DNA of 15,004 nucleotides from Candidatus Zixiibacteriota bacterium (GTDB taxonomy: Bacteria; SM23-81): assembly GCA_030628225.1 (NCBI GenBank), contig DAOVRJ010000030.1, positions 1 to 15,004 of the forward strand. Direction: 5' to 3'. Shown piece by piece: positions 1,985 through 14,352 of this stretch; positions within the stretch are counted from its first letter, which is position 1; each line of letters starts with the position of its first letter. The translations under genes were made by a program, and so were the position numbers. Under the pieces are notes generated by a model, which saw only the letters and a program-made list of their open reading frames with translations, was not told the DNA's origin and made no database searches.

Positions 1985-4912
1985 TTAGAAGAAATCCAGC
2001 CTCTCTTCCGGCATGAACACGGCGAGCTTGAGAATCCTGTCGCCCACGCCGCTGATCTCTACGTGCGCGATGTACATGCCGCTTGCCACTGGAACGTCTC
2101 CCTCGTTTCTCAGATACCAATAGGCCATCGGTGTGTCCAGGGTACCCTGCTCTGTCCGCTCGTCGTTGTCGATGATCTTGACCAGGGTCCCGCTGAGGGT
2201 GAAGATCCTGATGGTCGCATCGCGGTCGGACAGGTGGGTGAAGGTGACGAAGCGATCGGTGGCGATCCTCTCCTGCGGGTTGAAACCGAAGTAGGGGTTG
2301 GGAACCACGTTGACCTTGTCCAGGTTGACCGCTTCCACAGCATCTCCGCTTGTGGGCGCTGCGGAGGAGAATGAGAACACGTCATTGGTGGTGTTGACGT
2401 AGTTGGGAATGAGCGTCCAAATGCCCTCTGTCTCCAGATACGGATGGGTGCCTCTCAACCGAGGCCAGTAGGCCCACAGGACGTCGGCGGAGGGTGCCCA
2501 CATGGGATCGTCGTCGCCGTAACCGCCGGCCGTAGTCGGATCGTAGTCGCTGTTCATGATGAACAGATACTCTCTCCCGCCGTAGTCGCTGTTGTCCGGA
2601 TCCCAGATCATGTTGGCTGGCTTCTCATCGGCATCGCTTTCCACAAAGGCGATGTTCAGCCTGCGGCCACCATCATCCATGTCATAGGCGCCGCCGGGGA
2701 ATGTGCCCAGACCCGGCTGAACGGCGTAGCCCAGATCACGACGGTACACCTTGCAGTTGGTCTGCTCTGTGCTGCTGAAGCGGATCTCCACCTTGTGGTA
2801 ATCCGCCGCCGTCAGGGTGCTGCCGAAGAACCATATGCCCAGATCGACGGCGCCGCCGAAGATGCTTCCGCCCCAATTGACCCAGCTGAACCACCGGGTG
2901 TCCGAATATTCCCAATCCTTCGCCTGGAGCGGGGGACCGGCCACCTTGACCAACAAACCTTCCACGATCTGGTAGTCCTCATCGCCAGTCTGATTAAGCT
3001 GATCGTCGAGCAGAACTTGGTTAGTGCTGGTGTTGGTCAGCCTCCAGGCGCTGGCGTCTTCATCCTCCACCTGGATTGTATGAAAGGTGACCTCATAGTT
3101 GTCGCCGGTCACAGAGAGCGGATCCAGGACGATGGGAGTGACCGTGCCGTCGCTGCCGCCGGCATGAGTCACCTCCAGGTACTCACCCACATCCACATTG
3201 GGATCCGAGTCGAACTGCTCCTGCGGGTAGATGAAGATGGCCTCCATGGCGCTCTCCACGGTGCGCGGGGCCACGGCCGGATCCTCGTTGAAAGCATAGG
3301 TGGTCACGGCGAAGTAGTAGCGGCGGTAATTGCTCAACGGCGTTTGGGTGAGGACATCTTCGTCGATGGTCAGGTATCGCTGAATCCCGCTGTTCTCGCC
3401 CCATTGCACCGGTTTCTCCAGGACCAGTCCCGTCTCGGCGTCGAAGGTCTTGTCGAAGATGATCCCGTAGTCGTCGACGATGTCGAAGGTGGCCAGGCGG
3501 GTCCAGGGACCGGAAACGGAGGAACCCTGATAGACGTTGTAGCCCTGGAACTGGTATCCGCCGAATTCGTAAGCCTCAACCTCTTCATAGCCCTCCTGCC
3601 AGGTCAGAACGATCTCCCTGTCCAGGGAAGCAATTTCCACCGCCGGCTGTGGCGGAGATGGCAATTCAAAGTCGCAGTCATAGGCGTTCTGGGCAAAGCC
3701 GTCGAAAAAGCGCAGGGCGGCCACGGCGCTGGTGTTGCTGACTCCCGGAGCGATGATCTTGGCGCCGACCACTACCTGAGTGTCGCCGGGGGCCAGAACG
3801 AAGGGTCCGGAGGACATCAGGAATCGCCGGTCGCCGGGGGCCACCGCCGAGCCATCCAGGTCCCCGGTGCCGGTCACCGGATCACCAACGAAGGCAAACG
3901 GCGAGGTCACATTGCCGTCTGAGTCGGTGTACGGGGTGCCGTCGCCGGCATATCCGTTCATGAACCAGTAGGCCTCCGAGGGAATCTCCGGGTCGTCGAA
4001 GGGGTCTGGAGCACCGTTGTAGTACCAGGCGAAGGCGGTCATGCCCAGGTACTCCCCCTCAACCTCCGGGCCCTGGAAGAAGTCAAACCCCAGGGCCGGC
4101 GGCTTGGAACCGTAGGTGGCATCGGTGGGGTTACCGTTGTAGCAGTAGCCCAGGCCCAGGGTGGTGTCGCAGCCGACCAGGTCGTCGGAGGCATCGCCCA
4201 GATCCGGGTCATCCCACAGGGCCACAAAGCAGGAGTCGAACTGCTGGGTGCCCTTGTGGATGAAGGTCCACTCGAAGAATATGATGTTGCCCATGGGATC
4301 GGCGCGGTTGAACCCGAAGACCTTGGCGTGGATCTCCACGCCCATGGGCGGTGTGCCGAACACGTTGGAATGCTGGGCGGCGTTGCTGTCGTTGTAGCAC
4401 CACCACAGGGTCTGATCGCCGATGATCCCGGGATCGCCGTTCTCGTCGACGGGAGCGCCCTGATCCACGGGCCAGACATCCCAGTCGCCGGTGCCGTCCT
4501 TGTTGATCTTATAGATGCGGTAGGCCTCGTCCGCTGAAGTCCCTCCCACGGGGCCGGCCACCAGCTCACTGGAATACTCGGCGCAGGCCGTGTAGATAAC
4601 GCCGTCGTCGTGTCCTATGCCGGCCAGCCACAGGCCCGAGGCGTAGTCGATGGTCTTGTTCGTTCCCTTGGGCCACTCCATGCCCGAGGCGCCGGTGATC
4701 CTGTGATCAACGATCAAACCATCGTTGGTCATGGAGCAGTCGATTGTGTTGCCGTCAAAGTGCTCGTGGCTGATCACGGTGGGCCTGGCCAGGGGCTCTC
4801 CTCCCGGCACCGAGGTGACCCGGGGGGCAGCCCACACAGTACCCACCAGCAGGAGGGTCAGCAGGGGCACCATGACGGAGCCGATGGTTGGAAACCCTCG
4901 TTTCCGGCTCAT
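1985..4912 (-). CDS. Large secreted protein with fibronectin-III-like region and type IX sorting-like C-terminal domain
   Basis: A 975-residue exported protein whose function I do not recognise. The start has a strong site (GAGGAGG, seven bases before ATG) and a signal peptide with a VWA|A site near residue 28. Residues about 55-110 carry MTNDG..., EWPKGTNKTIDYASGLWLAGIG, an N-terminal pattern I recall from large uncharacterised FCB proteins. Residues 420-545 resemble a fibronectin type III region (PQPAVEIASLDREIVLTW, YNVYQGSSVSGPWTRL, YYFAVTTYAFNEDP). Residues about 866-967 look like a type IX (Por) sorting domain: VNVVPNPY, ATIRIFTLSGTLVKII, then GDVPVASGMYIAHVE and a KLAVFMP strand. The end is unusual: EERLDFF rather than the common short basic end. 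Gene order, receptor upstream and PorV-like downstream, suggests a surface partner of the receptor handled by the PorV-like protein. That partnership is inference. Confidence 0.85.
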   Translation of the reverse strand: MSRKRGFPTIGSVMVPLLTLLLVGTVWAAPRVTSVPGGEPLARPTVISHEHFDGNTIDCSMTNDGLIVDHRITGASGMEWPKGTNKTIDYASGLWLAGIGHDDGVIYTACAEYSSELVAGPVGGTSADEAYRIYKINKDGTGDWDVWPVDQGAPVDENGDPGIIGDQTLWWCYNDSNAAQHSNVFGTPPMGVEIHAKVFGFNRADPMGNIIFFEWTFIHKGTQQFDSCFVALWDDPDLGDASDDLVGCDTTLGLGYCYNGNPTDATYGSKPPALGFDFFQGPEVEGEYLGMTAFAWYYNGAPDPFDDPEIPSEAYWFMNGYAGDGTPYTDSDGNVTSPFAFVGDPVTGTGDLDGSAVAPGDRRFLMSSGPFVLAPGDTQVVVGAKIIAPGVSNTSAVAALRFFDGFAQNAYDCDFELPSPPQPAVEIASLDREIVLTWQEGYEEVEAYEFGGYQFQGYNVYQGSSVSGPWTRLATFDIVDDYGIIFDKTFDAETGLVLEKPVQWGENSGIQRYLTIDEDVLTQTPLSNYRRYYFAVTTYAFNEDPAVAPRTVESAMEAIFIYPQEQFDSDPNVDVGEYLEVTHAGGSDGTVTPIVLDPLSVTGDNYEVTFHTIQVEDEDASAWRLTNTSTNQVLLDDQLNQTGDEDYQIVEGLLVKVAGPPLQAKDWEYSDTRWFSWVNWGGSIFGGAVDLGIWFFGSTLTAADYHKVEIRFSSTEQTNCKVYRRDLGYAVQPGLGTFPGGAYDMDDGGRRLNIAFVESDADEKPANMIWDPDNSDYGGREYLFIMNSDYDPTTAGGYGDDDPMWAPSADVLWAYWPRLRGTHPYLETEGIWTLIPNYVNTTNDVFSFSSAAPTSGDAVEAVNLDKVNVVPNPYFGFNPQERIATDRFVTFTHLSDRDATIRIFTLSGTLVKIIDNDERTEQGTLDTPMAYWYLRNEGDVPVASGMYIAHVEISGVGDRILKLAVFMPEERLDFF

Positions 4913-8445: not shown

Positions 8446-10242
8446 ATGCTTAAAACCATGCGTCAAAACACGAAACTTATCCTGTGGATCATCCTGATCG
8501 CCTTTGTGGGAACGATCATCTTCGCCTGGGGCATGAACGTAACAGGGATGAAAAAGCGCCCGCGAGAAATAGTGGGTGTGATCAACAGTCAGAAGATCTC
8601 TTTTCAGCTGTTTCATAGTACTCTTCAGAAAATGCACACCCAGGCGCGAGAACGCTCGGGCCAGGAACTGGATGCGGAGGCCTCGCGCCGGCTGCGCGAT
8701 GAAATCTGGAATGAAATGGTCAAGCAAATCTTGTTGGCGGAGGAGGTGGAGAAAAGAAAACTTCAGGCCACAGACGAGGAACTGCTCTATTACATCCAGC
8801 ACAACCCGCCGCCTTTTATTCTGAACAACGAGAGTCTGCAGACAGATAGGAAATTTGATCCCCAGAAGTACGCGGCGATACTGGCTGACCCCAGATACGA
8901 TTGGACATTTCTGGAGAACCAATATCGAGCGATGATTCCATTGCAGAAACTGCAGAGCATGATTGCAGCCACCGTTAGGGTCACCGACGCAGAGGTGTTG
9001 AACGAGTATAAGGCCAAAAATGAAATGGTCCAGACACGCTATGTGGCCTTTCTGCCGAAGAATTTTAAGGTCAATCAGGCCAAGATTACCGGGGAGGAAA
9101 TCGGCCAATATTTTGACGAACACCGGGAGGATTATCACCAGCCGCGCAAGGCCAATCTGGATTACGTGTTCCTGGAGAAAATTCCCACTCAGGCAGATAA
9201 GGACAGCAGTCGGGCGGATATCGAAGCCATCAGAGAGAGAATTATGATGGGCGAGGATTTCGCTGAGATGGCCGAGGCTTTTTCCCACGGGCCTTCTGCC
9301 AAGGAAGGTGGAGATCTGGGGTTCTTTGGCCGGGGAGTCATGGACAGCGTTTTCGAGGCCACGGCCTTTGCCCTCCAAGAGGGAGAAATATCAGTTCCGG
9401 TCCGCACCACCTTTGGCTGGCACATCATCAAGCTGGAGGAAAGGCAAGGCCAGGGCAGTAAAGAGGAGGTGCACGCACGACACATTCTGCTGGAAGTCCG
9501 TCCCAGCTATGAAACGCTGCAGGCCCTTATAGCTCAAGTCAACGATCTGGTTGAGAAGGCCAATGAGATCGGGTTAGAGAAGGCCGCCCAGGCGGCGGAC
9601 TTAGTAGTCAAACAAACGGGTCTTTTCCCGGAGGGCAGCAGATTCGTGCCCGGACTAAGCAGGGCCAACAGAGCCTCCCGGTTTGCCTTTTCGGAGAAGC
9701 CGGGAAAAATCGGTGGCCCCTTCGAAAACGAGAGCGGATTCTATGTGATCTCCATCCGGGAACAACGGGAATCCGGGGTACCCCTGTTGGAGGAAATCAA
9801 GGCGCAGGTCAAATCAGACCTGGTTCGCCAAAAGCAAAGCCAACTGGCTCTGGAAAAAGCTACGGATTTTGAACATCGCCTCCATGAAAACTTGACTCTT
9901 GATGAAGGAGCCCAAGAGACCTCCCTCACCGTGGAGGAGACGAAACTCTTTGCTCGCCAGGACTATGTTCCCAATATTGGTCTGGCCAACGAGTTTGTGG
10001 GAACGGCTTTTGGACTCTCGGAGGGTGAAACCAGCGGCATGGTGGAGACCAATCGCGGATACTACTTCCTGCAGGTGGTGGCTGGAGAGGATATAGAGCT
10101 GGATCAATACGAGGAACAGAAAGAAGCCTTGAAACTGGATCTGCTTAGAAAAAAGCAAAATCAGGCTTTCGGAGACTGGTTTGAGGGCGTAAAAAAACAG
10201 GCCAAAATAGAGGACTATCGCAACGACTTCTACGAAGGATAG
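8446..10242 (+). CDS. ppiD: PpiD/SurA-like membrane-anchored peptidyl-prolyl cis-trans isomerase (periplasmic chaperone)
   Basis: A 598-residue protein with the PpiD plan: a short cytoplasmic N-terminus, one transmembrane anchor at about 10-29 (LILWIILIAFVGTIIFAWGM), a SurA-N-type chaperone region at about 40-190 (GVINSQKISFQLF, then RRLRDEIWNEMVKQILLAEE), and a parvulin-type domain at about 234-333 (EDFAEMAEAFSHGPSAKEGGDLGFFGRG, then TTFGWHIIKLEER). A second parvulin-like segment starts with canonical EVHARHILLEV (341-351) but lacks the GGDLG core. A third echo, VGTAFGLSEGETSGMVETNRGYYFLQVV, lies at about 518-545. E. coli PpiD has 623 residues and helps newly exported proteins fold near the Sec translocon. 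Whether this protein isomerises prolines is uncertain, as the first domain lacks the usual N-terminal histidine motif. AAAGGAG lies seven bases before the ATG. It is transcribed divergently from the receptor operon and convergently with the BamB-like gene. Confidence 0.88.
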   Translation: MLKTMRQNTKLILWIILIAFVGTIIFAWGMNVTGMKKRPREIVGVINSQKISFQLFHSTLQKMHTQARERSGQELDAEASRRLRDEIWNEMVKQILLAEEVEKRKLQATDEELLYYIQHNPPPFILNNESLQTDRKFDPQKYAAILADPRYDWTFLENQYRAMIPLQKLQSMIAATVRVTDAEVLNEYKAKNEMVQTRYVAFLPKNFKVNQAKITGEEIGQYFDEHREDYHQPRKANLDYVFLEKIPTQADKDSSRADIEAIRERIMMGEDFAEMAEAFSHGPSAKEGGDLGFFGRGVMDSVFEATAFALQEGEISVPVRTTFGWHIIKLEERQGQGSKEEVHARHILLEVRPSYETLQALIAQVNDLVEKANEIGLEKAAQAADLVVKQTGLFPEGSRFVPGLSRANRASRFAFSEKPGKIGGPFENESGFYVISIREQRESGVPLLEEIKAQVKSDLVRQKQSQLALEKATDFEHRLHENLTLDEGAQETSLTVEETKLFARQDYVPNIGLANEFVGTAFGLSEGETSGMVETNRGYYFLQVVAGEDIELDQYEEQKEALKLDLLRKKQNQAFGDWFEGVKKQAKIEDYRNDFYEG

Positions 10243-10243
10243 C

Positions 10244-11398
10244 CTACTTTATGGCGGATGAATCCTCTGCTCCCTCCCCGAATGCATACATGTAGCCATC
10301 CATGGAGCCGACGAAGATCTGTCCCTGCCAGGCCACGGGGGATGAAACAATGGCCCTCCCGGCGTGATAGCTCCACCTGAGCTCACCGGTTTCACCATCC
10401 AGGGCGTAAAGCGTTCCATCGCTGGCACCGAAGATAACCAGCTCATAGCTGGTCAAAGGTGAACTGGGGATGGCGTTTTCCACCGTAAAGCACCACTTCA
10501 GCCTTCCGCTAGTGGCATCCAGCGCGCACAACTTGCCGTCATCAAACCCCACATACACCCTTCCGTTCCCCATGGCCGGCGAACCGGACAGCCCACCCTC
10601 CCCCTGATACGACCACATCACCTCCCCTTGCTCTCCCCTCAGAGCGTAGACCTTCCCCTCGAAGGAACCCACATAGACGCATCCCTCATGGGCAACGGGC
10701 GACCACCAGATGGCTCCGGCCAGCTGCCGCCGCCAGACCTCCCGACCACTCTCGGCCTTCAGGGCATAGAGGAAACCATCGTCCGAGCCAAGGTAGACCA
10801 TCTCTCCGTCAACTGCGGCCGGTGAGTTCACCCGCCCCCCCGTCTGAAACCACCACAACTCGCTCCCATCCTCCGCAGATAACGCGTGAAAACTGCCTGA
10901 TCCGGAGCTGACGAACACCATCTGGCGAGCCAGGGTCAACGATGCCGAGATATCGCCGATCTCCGCTTTCCAGCGCATGTCCCCGGTGTCCAAATCCACG
11001 GCGTATATAGTATCATCACCAAACTCCGTCCCAAAATAAACGGTCTGCCCTGCCATTGCCGGCGAAGAGGAAATGCTGGACTTTAGTTTGAGAGATCCCT
11101 GCAGCTGCCCATCCATGACCGAAAGGAGGTAAAACCTCTTGTCCAGTGAACCGAAGCAGACCGCACCACCCATCACCACCGGCGAGGAAACAATAGGACC
11201 CCTGGCGCGGAATTGCCATAAAAGCTCAAGGGGAAGGTGGAGTTGGCCGGAGTAAAAACCGGTATGCCCGCTGTTCCCGCCGAGCATGGACCAGCCCCCA
11301 TCGGGCTGAAAACCATCGGGAAGACGAAGATGTGCCCGGCAGGAAAAACAGCAAGCAGCCGTCATTACGGCAAGAGCTGTGAGTAATCGCAGCTTCAT
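10244..11398 (-). CDS. BamB-like PQQ-type eight-bladed beta-propeller lipoprotein
   Basis: A 384-residue protein. Residues 1-20 form a signal sequence rich in cysteine (MTAACCFSC); TAAC at 13-16 is the best lipobox, though not ideal. From residue about 58 to the end, eight repeats of roughly 40 residues follow the PQQ-propeller pattern SSP...VYVGS-DG-LYALD--TG---W, with the small-residue-proline element near residues 71, 111, 191, 232, 273, 313 and 352 and a degenerate one near 151. The last repeat lacks its outer strand, which the N-terminal LELLWQF segment could supply as a closing strand. Eight blades match BamB, the lipoprotein that supports BamA in outer-membrane protein assembly. No catalytic dehydrogenase residues were recognised. 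The gene begins eight bases after the stop of the Omp85 fusion gene, supporting joint transcription and function. A start seven codons upstream would overlap that gene and adds nothing signal-like, so it was not used. The ribosome site is weak (GAGACG). Confidence 0.8.
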   Translation of the reverse strand: MKLRLLTALAVMTAACCFSCRAHLRLPDGFQPDGGWSMLGGNSGHTGFYSGQLHLPLELLWQFRARGPIVSSPVVMGGAVCFGSLDKRFYLLSVMDGQLQGSLKLKSSISSSPAMAGQTVYFGTEFGDDTIYAVDLDTGDMRWKAEIGDISASLTLARQMVFVSSGSGSFHALSAEDGSELWWFQTGGRVNSPAAVDGEMVYLGSDDGFLYALKAESGREVWRRQLAGAIWWSPVAHEGCVYVGSFEGKVYALRGEQGEVMWSYQGEGGLSGSPAMGNGRVYVGFDDGKLCALDATSGRLKWCFTVENAIPSSPLTSYELVIFGASDGTLYALDGETGELRWSYHAGRAIVSSPVAWQGQIFVGSMDGYMYAFGEGAEDSSAIK

Positions 11399-11406
11399 TT
11401 TTCGTC

Positions 11407-14220
11407 TCAATAATTCCATCCGAAGAAAAATTGTACCCTCGTTCGAGGAAAGATAGTGTCGAAGTCGGTGATCTTGGCAAAATCGAGGCGAAGCACGGTG
11501 AAATAGCCCATTCTGGCCCGCAGACCGATGCCGAAGGCACCGTGGACCTGATACAGCTCCTCCTTTAGGCTGAGATTCTCATTCCAGGCGTTGCCCACGT
11601 CCAGGAAAATGGCACCTCTGATGGCCCGGAGCTCCAAATTCCCAAAGGGGAAACCCACCAGGAGGTTGTCGATCACCGGCACCCTGAGCTCATTGTTCAG
11701 CAGAATCAGCTTCCGGCCCATGAAGTGTCGACGTGGATACCCTCTCATATCCCAACTTCCTCCCATATAAAATATCTGGGGCTCTACCCCTTGACTGTAG
11801 CGGCCAACCAGCCGGACGGCATGAGAGATCCTGTGGCTTATCCGGAAATATTGACGCAAATCAGCCATTACCGCTCGGTTAAACACACGCCCCGACCGGG
11901 GTTCCCAGGTGAGTCCCAGGGTGAGCTTCATCCTGGAACCGTCCATGGGCCCCACCGGCCCCCACAGGGAAGTGTCCTTGATGAAGGAAAAATAGGAAGA
12001 GGACAAAATAGTCGATCTGCTCTTTCCGGTGTCGTAATTCTCCTTGTCCGAATTCTTCAGCAAGGTGCTCAGCTCTATTCGGTGAAACTTTGAAAACGGG
12101 TGGCTGGCGGTGACAAAAGCCCCGAACTGCCGCTCGTAATACCAGCCGTAATAGTCGTCGAAGTAATCGTCCACAAAGTGAAAGCCCCCTCCCCCGAAAT
12201 TAGTGCGGCGAGATAGGTTGAAATAGCTAAAACCGAGGTTGAAGCTGGAGAGAAAATCCCGCCGGGCGCTGGCGATGTTATTGACCAGGAAATAGTACTG
12301 GTGGTCTCCCAGCATGTCCGTCAGGGCAACCTGGAAACCTCCGCCGACGCCGAAAACGGGATCATAGGAGACGGCACTCTGGGCGATGTCCAGGGAGAGC
12401 TTCTTTCGATATCTGACCAGGGAAGGGGCCCGGGGGGCAGTGAGCTTCGCCGGCCGCCAAGGATCTCCCCCATCTGACCGTAAGGCCAACACCCCGGGCT
12501 CCAGGGAATCGGGGATTCCCATGCGATAGATCTGGAACTGCTGATTCCCATAGGCGGAGAAAACAAGCTGCCGGCCATCGACGGACCAGTCGGGGTCAAA
12601 GGCACCGGTTATGATATTGGTCAGCCGATGAACACTCCGATCCCCTTCGCCGACATCCAGAATGTAAAGGTTAAAAACACCTTTCCTGTCCGAGGAAAAG
12701 GCAATACGGTCTCCCTCCGGCGACCAGGAGGGTGCGTAGTCGTTATGAGATCCCTCTGTCAGCTGCTCTATCTCTCCTTCCCCAATGCGATACAGGTATA
12801 GGCTGTGAAATCCCCGGCGGCCCTGAGGCGATCGATCCGAACTGAAAGCCAAAAACCGGCCATCGGGAGACCAACTGGGATCCCTATCGTCATAAATGTC
12901 TGCCGTCAATCGGCTAAGCGCTCCTCCCTGGATCTCCACCATATAGAGATCCACATGACCATGAAAATCTGCGCCGGAGAAAACGATTTCATCGCCCCCG
13001 GGGGACCAACATGGTGAGGACAGGGAAATTAGACTGGGGAACTTAAACTTGTGGACGACACAGCCGGTCTCTATATCCATTAAATTGAGAACGTCCGTCT
13101 CCCGCGATTTGGATATGAAGGCCAGCACTCCGTCGCCGGAAAGGTTCAGCTTGCTTCTGTGCAAGTGCAGCGATTCGAACTCCGGGCTCCGTTCGCCACG
13201 GACCAGCCTCCTCTCCTTATTTCCCTCCTCACCGGGAGTTAATAGATAGATGGCCTCGTAACCCATCCTGTTGGACATGAAGACCACTCCCTCCTCACCC
13301 AAGCCCATCGCCGGGCAAACGGCCGGTTTGAGATTAGAACCCACAGTGGTCAGTTGATCGGCCACCTGTTCGGGCATATCATGGTCCTTCATCAGGGGAA
13401 AGTAGCGCTTTTTCAGGCTATACTGCCATTGTCTGTCCAGCTCCTTCAGGGAGCAGCCCAGTGTGATCTCCAGCACATCGCGAAATTTCTTGGCCTTCCA
13501 CCAATTTTCGAAAAGGCGCAGGATTTTATCCTCACCGTATCGCTGGGCGATGAACTCCACGGCGGATTGTCCTTCCTTATACATCTGAAAAGTGCCGTTG
13601 ATCCGGTACATCTGTTCTAGGGGAACCAGGTTTCCGGAGATAACTGCATCTCGCATGACCATCTCGGCCCGGGCGTCCCAGCGGCCCGACCAGTATTCGG
13701 CCAGCCCCTCTATCATCCACAGGGGGGGCAGATAATACTGGAATTTGTCGTGGTCGCGGAGCACAATCCTGAGCTTGGCCAGGTTGAACACATGCACCAG
13801 CTCATGCCGGATGGTTCGATCCAAGCGAGCATAAGAACCGTTGAAGGGAATGACCACGCGACCCTTCATGAACTCCATGAACCCGCCCACACTTTCCGGC
13901 AGCATATAGGGGGTGGTATTGGTCTGTTGAAAATAATTGTGAGCGCTGTAGAGAATCAGGGGAATGGGCCGGGAGAGGGGCTGGTGAAACTTGGCGGCCA
14001 GCTCTCGGTAGCTCCTCTCGGCCATGGCCGCTGCCGCCTCGGCCAGCATCCTTTCCTGCGGATAGAAGTACACCTCGAAGTGGTCGGTTTTCATCACCTG
14101 CCACTTGAAATCGGTGTACTGTATCTTGTTCTTCCCGAAGTAAAACTGGGCCTGGCCTTCGGACAACAGGCCGAAGATACAGATCAGGCTGATGGTGAGA
14201 ATGATGCTCAATCTTCTCAT
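11407..14220 (-). CDS. Peptidase-MA-like zinc metallopeptidase / TolB-type PD40 propeller / Omp85 barrel fusion
   Basis: A 937-residue outer-membrane protein in three parts. After a signal peptide (cleavage GQA|QFYFG near 24), residues about 40-270 form a gluzincin-type peptidase domain: RHELVH with the HExxH motif at 139-143 and EGLAEYW at 171-177, E171 being the expected third zinc ligand. Residues about 295-565 carry six propeller repeats of PD40/TolB type, clearest at PSWSPDGRFLAFSSDR (448-463), PSWSPEGDRIAFSSDR (497-512) and PDWSVDGRQLVFSA (543-556). Residues about 605-937 are an Omp85/BamA-type barrel with GGSWDMRGYP (820-829), the conserved loop-6 RGY element, and an aromatic C-terminus, RVQFFFGWNY. 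No POTRA repeat was seen where Omp85 proteins normally have them. Longer frames start at TTG 14262 or ATG 14250, but ATG 14220 starts directly at the signal peptide; its ribosome site (AGAAGAG) is moderate. Architecture suggests periplasmic proteolysis or binding coupled to an outer-membrane barrel; substrate unknown. Confidence 0.87.
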   Translation of the reverse strand: MRRLSIILTISLICIFGLLSEGQAQFYFGKNKIQYTDFKWQVMKTDHFEVYFYPQERMLAEAAAAMAERSYRELAAKFHQPLSRPIPLILYSAHNYFQQTNTTPYMLPESVGGFMEFMKGRVVIPFNGSYARLDRTIRHELVHVFNLAKLRIVLRDHDKFQYYLPPLWMIEGLAEYWSGRWDARAEMVMRDAVISGNLVPLEQMYRINGTFQMYKEGQSAVEFIAQRYGEDKILRLFENWWKAKKFRDVLEITLGCSLKELDRQWQYSLKKRYFPLMKDHDMPEQVADQLTTVGSNLKPAVCPAMGLGEEGVVFMSNRMGYEAIYLLTPGEEGNKERRLVRGERSPEFESLHLHRSKLNLSGDGVLAFISKSRETDVLNLMDIETGCVVHKFKFPSLISLSSPCWSPGGDEIVFSGADFHGHVDLYMVEIQGGALSRLTADIYDDRDPSWSPDGRFLAFSSDRSPQGRRGFHSLYLYRIGEGEIEQLTEGSHNDYAPSWSPEGDRIAFSSDRKGVFNLYILDVGEGDRSVHRLTNIITGAFDPDWSVDGRQLVFSAYGNQQFQIYRMGIPDSLEPGVLALRSDGGDPWRPAKLTAPRAPSLVRYRKKLSLDIAQSAVSYDPVFGVGGGFQVALTDMLGDHQYYFLVNNIASARRDFLSSFNLGFSYFNLSRRTNFGGGGFHFVDDYFDDYYGWYYERQFGAFVTASHPFSKFHRIELSTLLKNSDKENYDTGKSRSTILSSSYFSFIKDTSLWGPVGPMDGSRMKLTLGLTWEPRSGRVFNRAVMADLRQYFRISHRISHAVRLVGRYSQGVEPQIFYMGGSWDMRGYPRRHFMGRKLILLNNELRVPVIDNLLVGFPFGNLELRAIRGAIFLDVGNAWNENLSLKEELYQVHGAFGIGLRARMGYFTVLRLDFAKITDFDTIFPRTRVQFFFGWNY

Positions 14221-14352
14221 TATAGGCTCTTCTGCCGCTAGTAACTCCATGTTAAACGTCAAGACATGCCCTCATAATATGCTCTTCATATCCTCTAAAA
14301 ATTGTGGGTTTAGGTATTGAAAGTGAAGTGTTAACAGCTAAGAGCCTTCAGA
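14221..14352. other. Short intergenic region upstream of the Omp85 fusion operon
   Basis: These 132 bases must hold the start signals of the fusion operon unless it is read through from the methyltransferase gene. No convincing promoter or terminator is visible: TTAACA at 14333-14328 on the minus strand is the best -35-like hexamer, but its downstream partner, TAAACC, is poor. No T-run hairpin follows the methyltransferase stop. Confidence 0.4.

Follow-up and report, generated by a model that had tools for sequence, protein, structure and literature searches.

Organization of the locus

The window, the whole stretch of 15,004 nucleotides analyzed here, carries on its minus strand an open reading frame that runs from an ATG at 14220 to a stop codon at 11409-11407 and encodes 937 amino acids; an alternative TTG start at 14262 would lengthen the product to 951 amino acids. 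Directly downstream on the same strand lies a gene for a BamB-like protein, which overlaps the first gene by 13 bases and has an alternative start at an internal ATG just beyond the upstream stop. The features of the two genes are listed below.

11407..14220, minus strand: whole gene, encoding a signal peptide, gluzincin peptidase, TolB-like propeller and Omp85 barrel (open reading frame, Pfam, AlphaFold2 model)
14149..14220, minus strand: signal peptide, residues 1-24, ending in GQA and followed by QF (sequence, read by eye)
13360..14100, minus strand: gluzincin peptidase domain, residues 41-287 (Pfam Peptidase_MA_2, AlphaFold2 domain model, M30/M9/M1 fold matches)
13792..13806, minus strand: HELVH, residues 139-143, two zinc histidines and the catalytic glutamate (homologue conservation)
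13708..13710, minus strand: E171, third zinc ligand, 28 residues past H143 (conservation, HMMER alignment to ColG)
12496..13359, minus strand: six-bladed TolB-type propeller, residues 288-575 (PD40, AlphaFold2, TolB fold match)
12400..12495, minus strand: linker, residues 576-607 (about 570-607 in the model), of low model confidence and poor conservation, without POTRA (AlphaFold2, conservation)
11410..12399, minus strand: 16-stranded Omp85 barrel, residues 608-937 (AlphaFold2 strands, BamA/Sam50 fold match, Pfam Omp85)
11737..11745, minus strand: loop-6 RGY, residues 826-828 (conservation)
11593..11607, minus strand: FxDxG motif within the 13th strand of the barrel, residues 872-876 (conservation)
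10244..11419, minus strand: BamB-like PQQ-propeller protein, probable lipoprotein, conserved downstream (best NCBIfam match BamB)

The first-pass annotation had described a gluzincin, a propeller and an Omp85 barrel in one polypeptide, and this three-part architecture is borne out by Pfam, AlphaFold2 and fold comparison; the residue numbers that it gave for H139, E140, H143, E171 and RGY 826-828 are correct on the translated frame. In Pfam scans the protein matches Peptidase_MA_2 at residues 77-270 (43.0 bits against a cut-off of 32.4), PD40 (83.8 bits, above the cut-off) and Omp85 at residues 670-934 (35.0 bits, cut-off 24), with zero matches to POTRA or Peptidase_M48 up to E = 1. Peptidase_MA_2 found no match in any of 14 control genomes. 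NCBIfam matches to TolB, the Omp85 family and BamA are all sub-threshold: the TolB equivalog TIGR02800 scores 126.3 against 343 bits and the BamA equivalog TIGR03303 24.5 against 297. A weak similarity to ShlB is also detected (E 0.047).

Predicted structure

An AlphaFold2 model of the whole protein, built on an 80-sequence alignment, has a mean pLDDT of 89.2 and a pTM of 0.88. It places an alpha/beta peptidase domain (41-287) ahead of propeller strands spanning residues 296-568, which we grouped into six four-stranded blades, and these are followed by exactly 16 strands of the barrel, the first beginning at 609 and the last ending at 935 (609-620, 624-634, 640-648, 660-668, 674-688, 692-708, 713-728, 734-749, 757-773, 778-793, 799-810, 837-857, 860-879, 893-904, 908-918 and 928-935). 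In structure comparisons, model residues 309-573 match the E. coli TolB propeller with a Z-score of 28.2 over 241 residues, and residues 610-937 match the BamA/Sam50 barrel with Z-scores of 22-23 over about 290-305 residues; these fold matches draw on Foldseek as well. The region 605-937 is therefore predicted as a 16-stranded Omp85-type barrel, as had been claimed. The further claim that POTRA domains are missing agrees with the clean Pfam scan and with the model, in which residues 288-575 form a TolB-type propeller and no POTRA fold; a POTRA hidden within this region is ruled out by the model and the TolB match together. Only loop 6, of about 26 residues, and one loop of 13 residues stand out among the extracellular loops of the modeled barrel, which are otherwise short, so that the bulk of the protein mass is predicted to be periplasmic.

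Folded alone (residues 26-292, pLDDT 86.3) and compared by structure, with Foldseek also run on this domain, the peptidase matches M30 lugdulysin (Z 16.6), M9 collagenases (up to 15.9) and M1 aminopeptidases (about 14). In HMMER, its profile aligns without gaps to clostridial ColG from HExxH to the glutamate, in a weak match. As regards membership of the M9 collagenases, the best PDB profile match has E 0.0044, and the fold similarity is common to M30 and M1. The features of a clan MA gluzincin are present, namely HExxH with a distant glutamate and the gluzincin fold (Pfam, Z 14-17), and from the fold matches and the gapless ColG alignment we regard the domain as a gluzincin nearest in fold to M30 and M9. 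It differs from these enzymes in sequence, at about 14% identity, and in sharing its chain with a propeller and an outer-membrane barrel.

Conservation and distribution

A scan of named genomes gave at least 557 confirmed relatives, of which the best 80 were used. Zixibacteria, KSB1, Calditrichota, Ignavibacteria, Melioribacteraceae, Rhodothermales, Gemmatimonadota, Neomarinimicrobiota, Eisenbacteria, Krumholzibacteria, Glassbacteria and contigs labelled Bacteroidota are among the sources of these best 80. A contig titled Caldisericaceae (L118) has a Calditrichota-like copy and is probably misplaced. Full-length homologues with a single architecture are spread over many phyla, and since these have invariant zinc ligands, the architecture is not a product of chance. 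An artefactual fusion in a single assembly is ruled out by its recurrence in independent genomes.

Without exception, H139, E140 and H143 are retained in the homologues (79/79), as is E171 (80/80), counts that are partly biased because one search pattern contained the glutamate motif. In relatives from a whole-protein search the same residues are invariant in 12/12, or 17/17 when B-type paralogues (see below) are counted. Judged by these residues, the zinc site does appear intact, as first supposed, and a degenerate peptidase is ruled out. In the barrel, loop 6 retains R826 in 79/79 and G827 in 71/79 homologues, so that the RGY element reported earlier is indeed present; the FxDxG motif retains D874 in 79/79 and G876 in 74/79, G934 of strand beta-16 is found in 79/79, and the C-terminal residue is F or Y. 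Mean column identity is highest in the peptidase (0.63), followed by the barrel (0.58), the propeller (0.50) and the linker (0.28). Invariance of the catalytic residues, distant paralogues included, indicates that selection maintains the protease, and the invariant or nearly invariant barrel motifs indicate the same for the Omp85 barrel. At the sequence level, these two sets of residues argue that both ends of the protein are functional.

The source genome encodes three peptidase-propeller proteins with barrel-type C-termini: A, the 937-residue protein of the window; B, of 1057 residues (contig C171); and C, of 1020 residues (contig C166), whose barrel is read from the sequence and has no Pfam Omp85 match. 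In a quick FastTree phylogeny, B and C each fall on one supported branch, separate from a supported A group. B-type loci have no BamB-like neighbor. In five genomes (G000, G001, G002, G003 and G012; loci L021, L022, L010/L040, L023 and L035) the B-type gene directly adjoins a MurA gene, a second conserved linkage. A C-type protein of 1020 residues (L129, 9436-12498) has NHPELEW after its signal peptide and an HEFTH motif, and a 594-residue Omp85 protein with three POTRA domains is encoded about 5 kb from its gene.

A linked gene for a probable BamB-like lipoprotein

Among the 80 named loci, 76 leave room for a downstream gene, and a BamB-like gene is directly downstream in 66 of these, in about ten phyla. 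With lineages named by record titles as deposited, the linkage is complete in Zixibacteria (11/11), Calditrichota (7/7), Melioribacteraceae (5/5), KSB1 (4/4), Gemmatimonadota (4/4), Neomarinimicrobiota (3/3), Rhodothermales (3/3) and Eisenbacteria (2/2), and partial in Ignavibacteria (12/15) and Bacteroidota (10/13). The nearest possible start overlaps the upstream stop in 43 of the 66 and lies at most 30 bases away in 17 more. By a heuristic scan, 58/66 homologues have a hydrophobic stretch with a lipobox-type cysteine. A second BamB-like match above 60 bits was not found in the flanks of the tallied loci, and the window protein is the only small BamB-like protein of the source genome; the other BamB-like match there is a 1143-residue frame (G000:C295, about 3801-4787) with three BamB-like propeller stretches.

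None of the ten partner proteins tested passes the BamB equivalog TIGR03300 (cut-off 285.2 bits; window protein 242.6, nine homologues 64-183), although BamB is the best NCBIfam match for each. The PQQ-propeller partner also matches designed propellers, and because such propellers are generic, 'BamB-like' denotes a likeness and not family membership.

Could the linkage reflect general synteny? This explanation is weakened by the next commonest neighbors, a PEGA-domain protein, PTS enzyme I and a sugar isomerase, which occur in 23-28 loci against 65 for the BamB-like gene. In 28 loci (e.g. L055, 7641-8438), or roughly half of the loci that have room, a PEGA gene comes directly after the BamB-like gene, and the PEGA protein may be a third component; the window has no such gene, and there the gene following the BamB-like gene is convergent.

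Discussion

Based on these results, we tentatively propose that the 937-residue protein and the BamB-like lipoprotein constitute a module for assembly and quality control at the outer membrane. The large protein would be an accessory Omp85, separate from both BamA and TamA, in which a zinc endopeptidase and a TolB-type propeller take the place of the POTRA 'handle'. Since both ends of an Omp85 barrel face the periplasm, the peptidase and propeller should be located there, beneath the barrel, a placement that we infer from Omp85 topology and by analogy with PlpD, whose enzyme domain was found to lie in the periplasm (PMC11116518). The co-encoded lipoprotein would join the 937-residue protein, and the propellers of the two may hold unfolded or partly folded clients close to the barrel seam, so that clients able to fold pass on into the membrane and the peptidase cleaves those that stall. 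The physical partnership, the type of client and the proteolysis are likewise inferred. The linked gene, overlooked in the first-pass annotation, is the strongest functional clue, as a partner of this kind points to the handling of outer-membrane clients, and it lends support to the earlier suggestion, plausible in itself, that a periplasmic client is cut or checked before insertion or export through the barrel.

The accessory role follows from the presence in the source genome of a separate BamA-like protein with five POTRA domains (contig C153), which makes the 937-residue protein an addition to BAM. The genome further encodes an Omp85 with three POTRA domains adjoining a TamB gene (contig C2) and two more POTRA-bearing proteins. 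BamA identity of the 937-residue protein is ruled out by the five-POTRA protein and by the BamA equivalog score. Among working systems the closest parallel is BepA, a metallopeptidase active on BAM that can either assist the assembly of LptD or degrade it (PMC8423444). Like the proposed module, BepA, an M48 enzyme of E. coli, is a periplasmic zinc peptidase working at an Omp85 barrel; it differs in standing alone as a protein, in belonging to a different peptidase family and in having no barrel or propeller.

Several points count against such a module. BamB docks on the POTRA domains of BamA, and as the 937-residue protein has none, its partner must bind elsewhere. The generic nature of PQQ propellers and the sub-threshold BamB scores of the ten partners tested also weigh against it. 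In PlpD an Omp85 barrel bears an enzyme and is not known to act as an insertase (PMC11116518), and a term search of a paper on the Bacteroidota BAM structure found neither a peptidase nor a propeller (PMC12611786). The protein may instead be a tethered protease, in which the barrel is an anchor devoid of insertase activity (as that of PlpD may be), the peptidase and propeller process or degrade envelope proteins, and the lipoprotein serves as a scaffold or substrate adaptor. We consider this a serious candidate, if a somewhat doubtful one: it has a precedent in the retention of the PlpD enzyme in the periplasm (PMC11116518), conservation is highest in the peptidase, and the genome already has its five-POTRA BamA-like protein and TamB beside a POTRA-Omp85. 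Yet the invariant loop-6 arginine, FxDxG aspartate and beta-16 glycine exceed the constraint expected for a plain anchor, and the BamB-like partner is linked. The invariant motifs, the linked lipoprotein and the BepA analogy lead us to favor the quality-control module.

Two further readings are less likely than either of these. The barrel could be a dedicated, two-partner-like translocase that exports a specific client, trimmed by the peptidase in passage. FhaC/ShlB-type Omp85 proteins export single partners, and the similarity to ShlB, faint as it is, fits such a role; but FhaC-type transport relies on POTRA domains, missing here, and the conserved neighbors are the BamB-like and PEGA proteins, with no gene for a large secreted partner conserved among them, so we hold this reading to be unlikely. 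Type Vd-like display, with the barrel moving both N-terminal domains out of the cell to act as a surface protease, seems more improbable still. A signal peptide, an enzyme and an Omp85 barrel make up the layout once proposed for PlpD, and the peptidase fold resembles that of secreted M9 and M30 enzymes, but display would require the passage of folded domains of about 550 residues, the periplasm is the probable site of the linked lipoprotein, and PlpD itself turned out to be periplasmic (PMC11116518).

How does this protein relate to known Omp85 classes? POTRA domains are usual in the Omp85 superfamily but not universal, as 'noNterm' and WD40 subfamilies exist. Heinz & Lithgow 2014 defined the 'WD40-Omp85' subfamily, in which a TolB-like propeller stands where POTRA would be, and likened it to a BamA-BamB fusion (PMC4104836). 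In 2024 WD40-Omp85 was still listed as not well characterized (PMC11116518). Compared by published description, WD40-Omp85 proteins share with ours a propeller N-terminal to the barrel and the lack of POTRA; the accessible description gives the propeller only, whereas here an intact zinc peptidase and a linked BamB-like gene are present too (PMC4104836). The first-pass annotation knew of no characterized member, and none of this peptidase-propeller-Omp85 type was found in the open-licence literature; its sense of novelty was somewhat overstated, as the propeller-Omp85 class had been defined in 2014 (PMC4104836). An intact peptidase in this class and the conserved gene pair with a lipoprotein appear to be undescribed in that literature. 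PF00149 is a metallophosphatase family, so the 'Metallo' Omp85 class is not the gluzincin found here. It is PF00149 that Heinz & Lithgow 2014 cite for this class (PMC4104836).

With BamA and BAM the protein shares the 16-stranded barrel (Z about 23), loop-6 RGY, FxDxG and a BamB-like partner; it differs in having a peptidase and a propeller and no POTRA, alongside a separate five-POTRA BamA-like protein. PlpD, a Pseudomonas patatin-Omp85, likewise has an enzyme fused ahead of the barrel, but this is a lipase with one POTRA, lacking zinc peptidase and propeller, and the accessible part of its report mentions no BamB-like operon partner (PMC11116518). TolB of the Tol-Pal system shares the propeller fold (Z 28, 18-20% identity), which here is fused to peptidase and barrel and scores 126 against 343 bits for the TolB equivalog.

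What is known of outer-membrane protein quality control is divided among BAM, the protease BepA and chaperones, each a part of its own. With protease, client-binding propeller and Omp85 barrel fused, one can test directly whether a single machine can combine assembly with proteolytic editing, and the 937-residue protein is a concrete entry to the uncharacterized non-POTRA Omp85 classes. Its occurrence beside a BamB-like gene in many little-studied bacteria suggests an uncharacterized device for outer-membrane assembly and quality control. An earlier study placed the arrival of BamB late, within Proteobacteria (PMC3359395), and our linkage suggests that BamB-type partners are not confined to Proteobacteria, their presumed origin. 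The Bacteroidota BAM has added subunits conserved in FCB phyla (PMC12611786). We also entertain, with more doubt than conviction, a bolder view, in which the 937-residue protein, the lipoprotein and, in many lineages, the PEGA protein form a third, POTRA-free and protease-equipped machine for outer-membrane protein assembly beside BAM and TAM, old in FCB bacteria and combining insertase and quality-control protease in one polypeptide.

Wider gene neighborhood

Immediately upstream of the peptidase-propeller-barrel gene, 23-27 loci (e.g. L061, L063) carry genes for PTS enzyme I and a probable sugar-phosphate isomerase, which sets the gene pair there in a partly conserved metabolic neighborhood. 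In the window, a SurA/PpiD-like peptidyl-prolyl isomerase gene (8446-10242) is convergent with the BamB-like gene and ends one base away from it. Further along, between 803 and 7967 on the minus strand, genes for a PorV/PorQ-family protein, a 975-residue secreted protein with weak similarity to T9SS tails and a TonB-dependent receptor are arranged in tandem.
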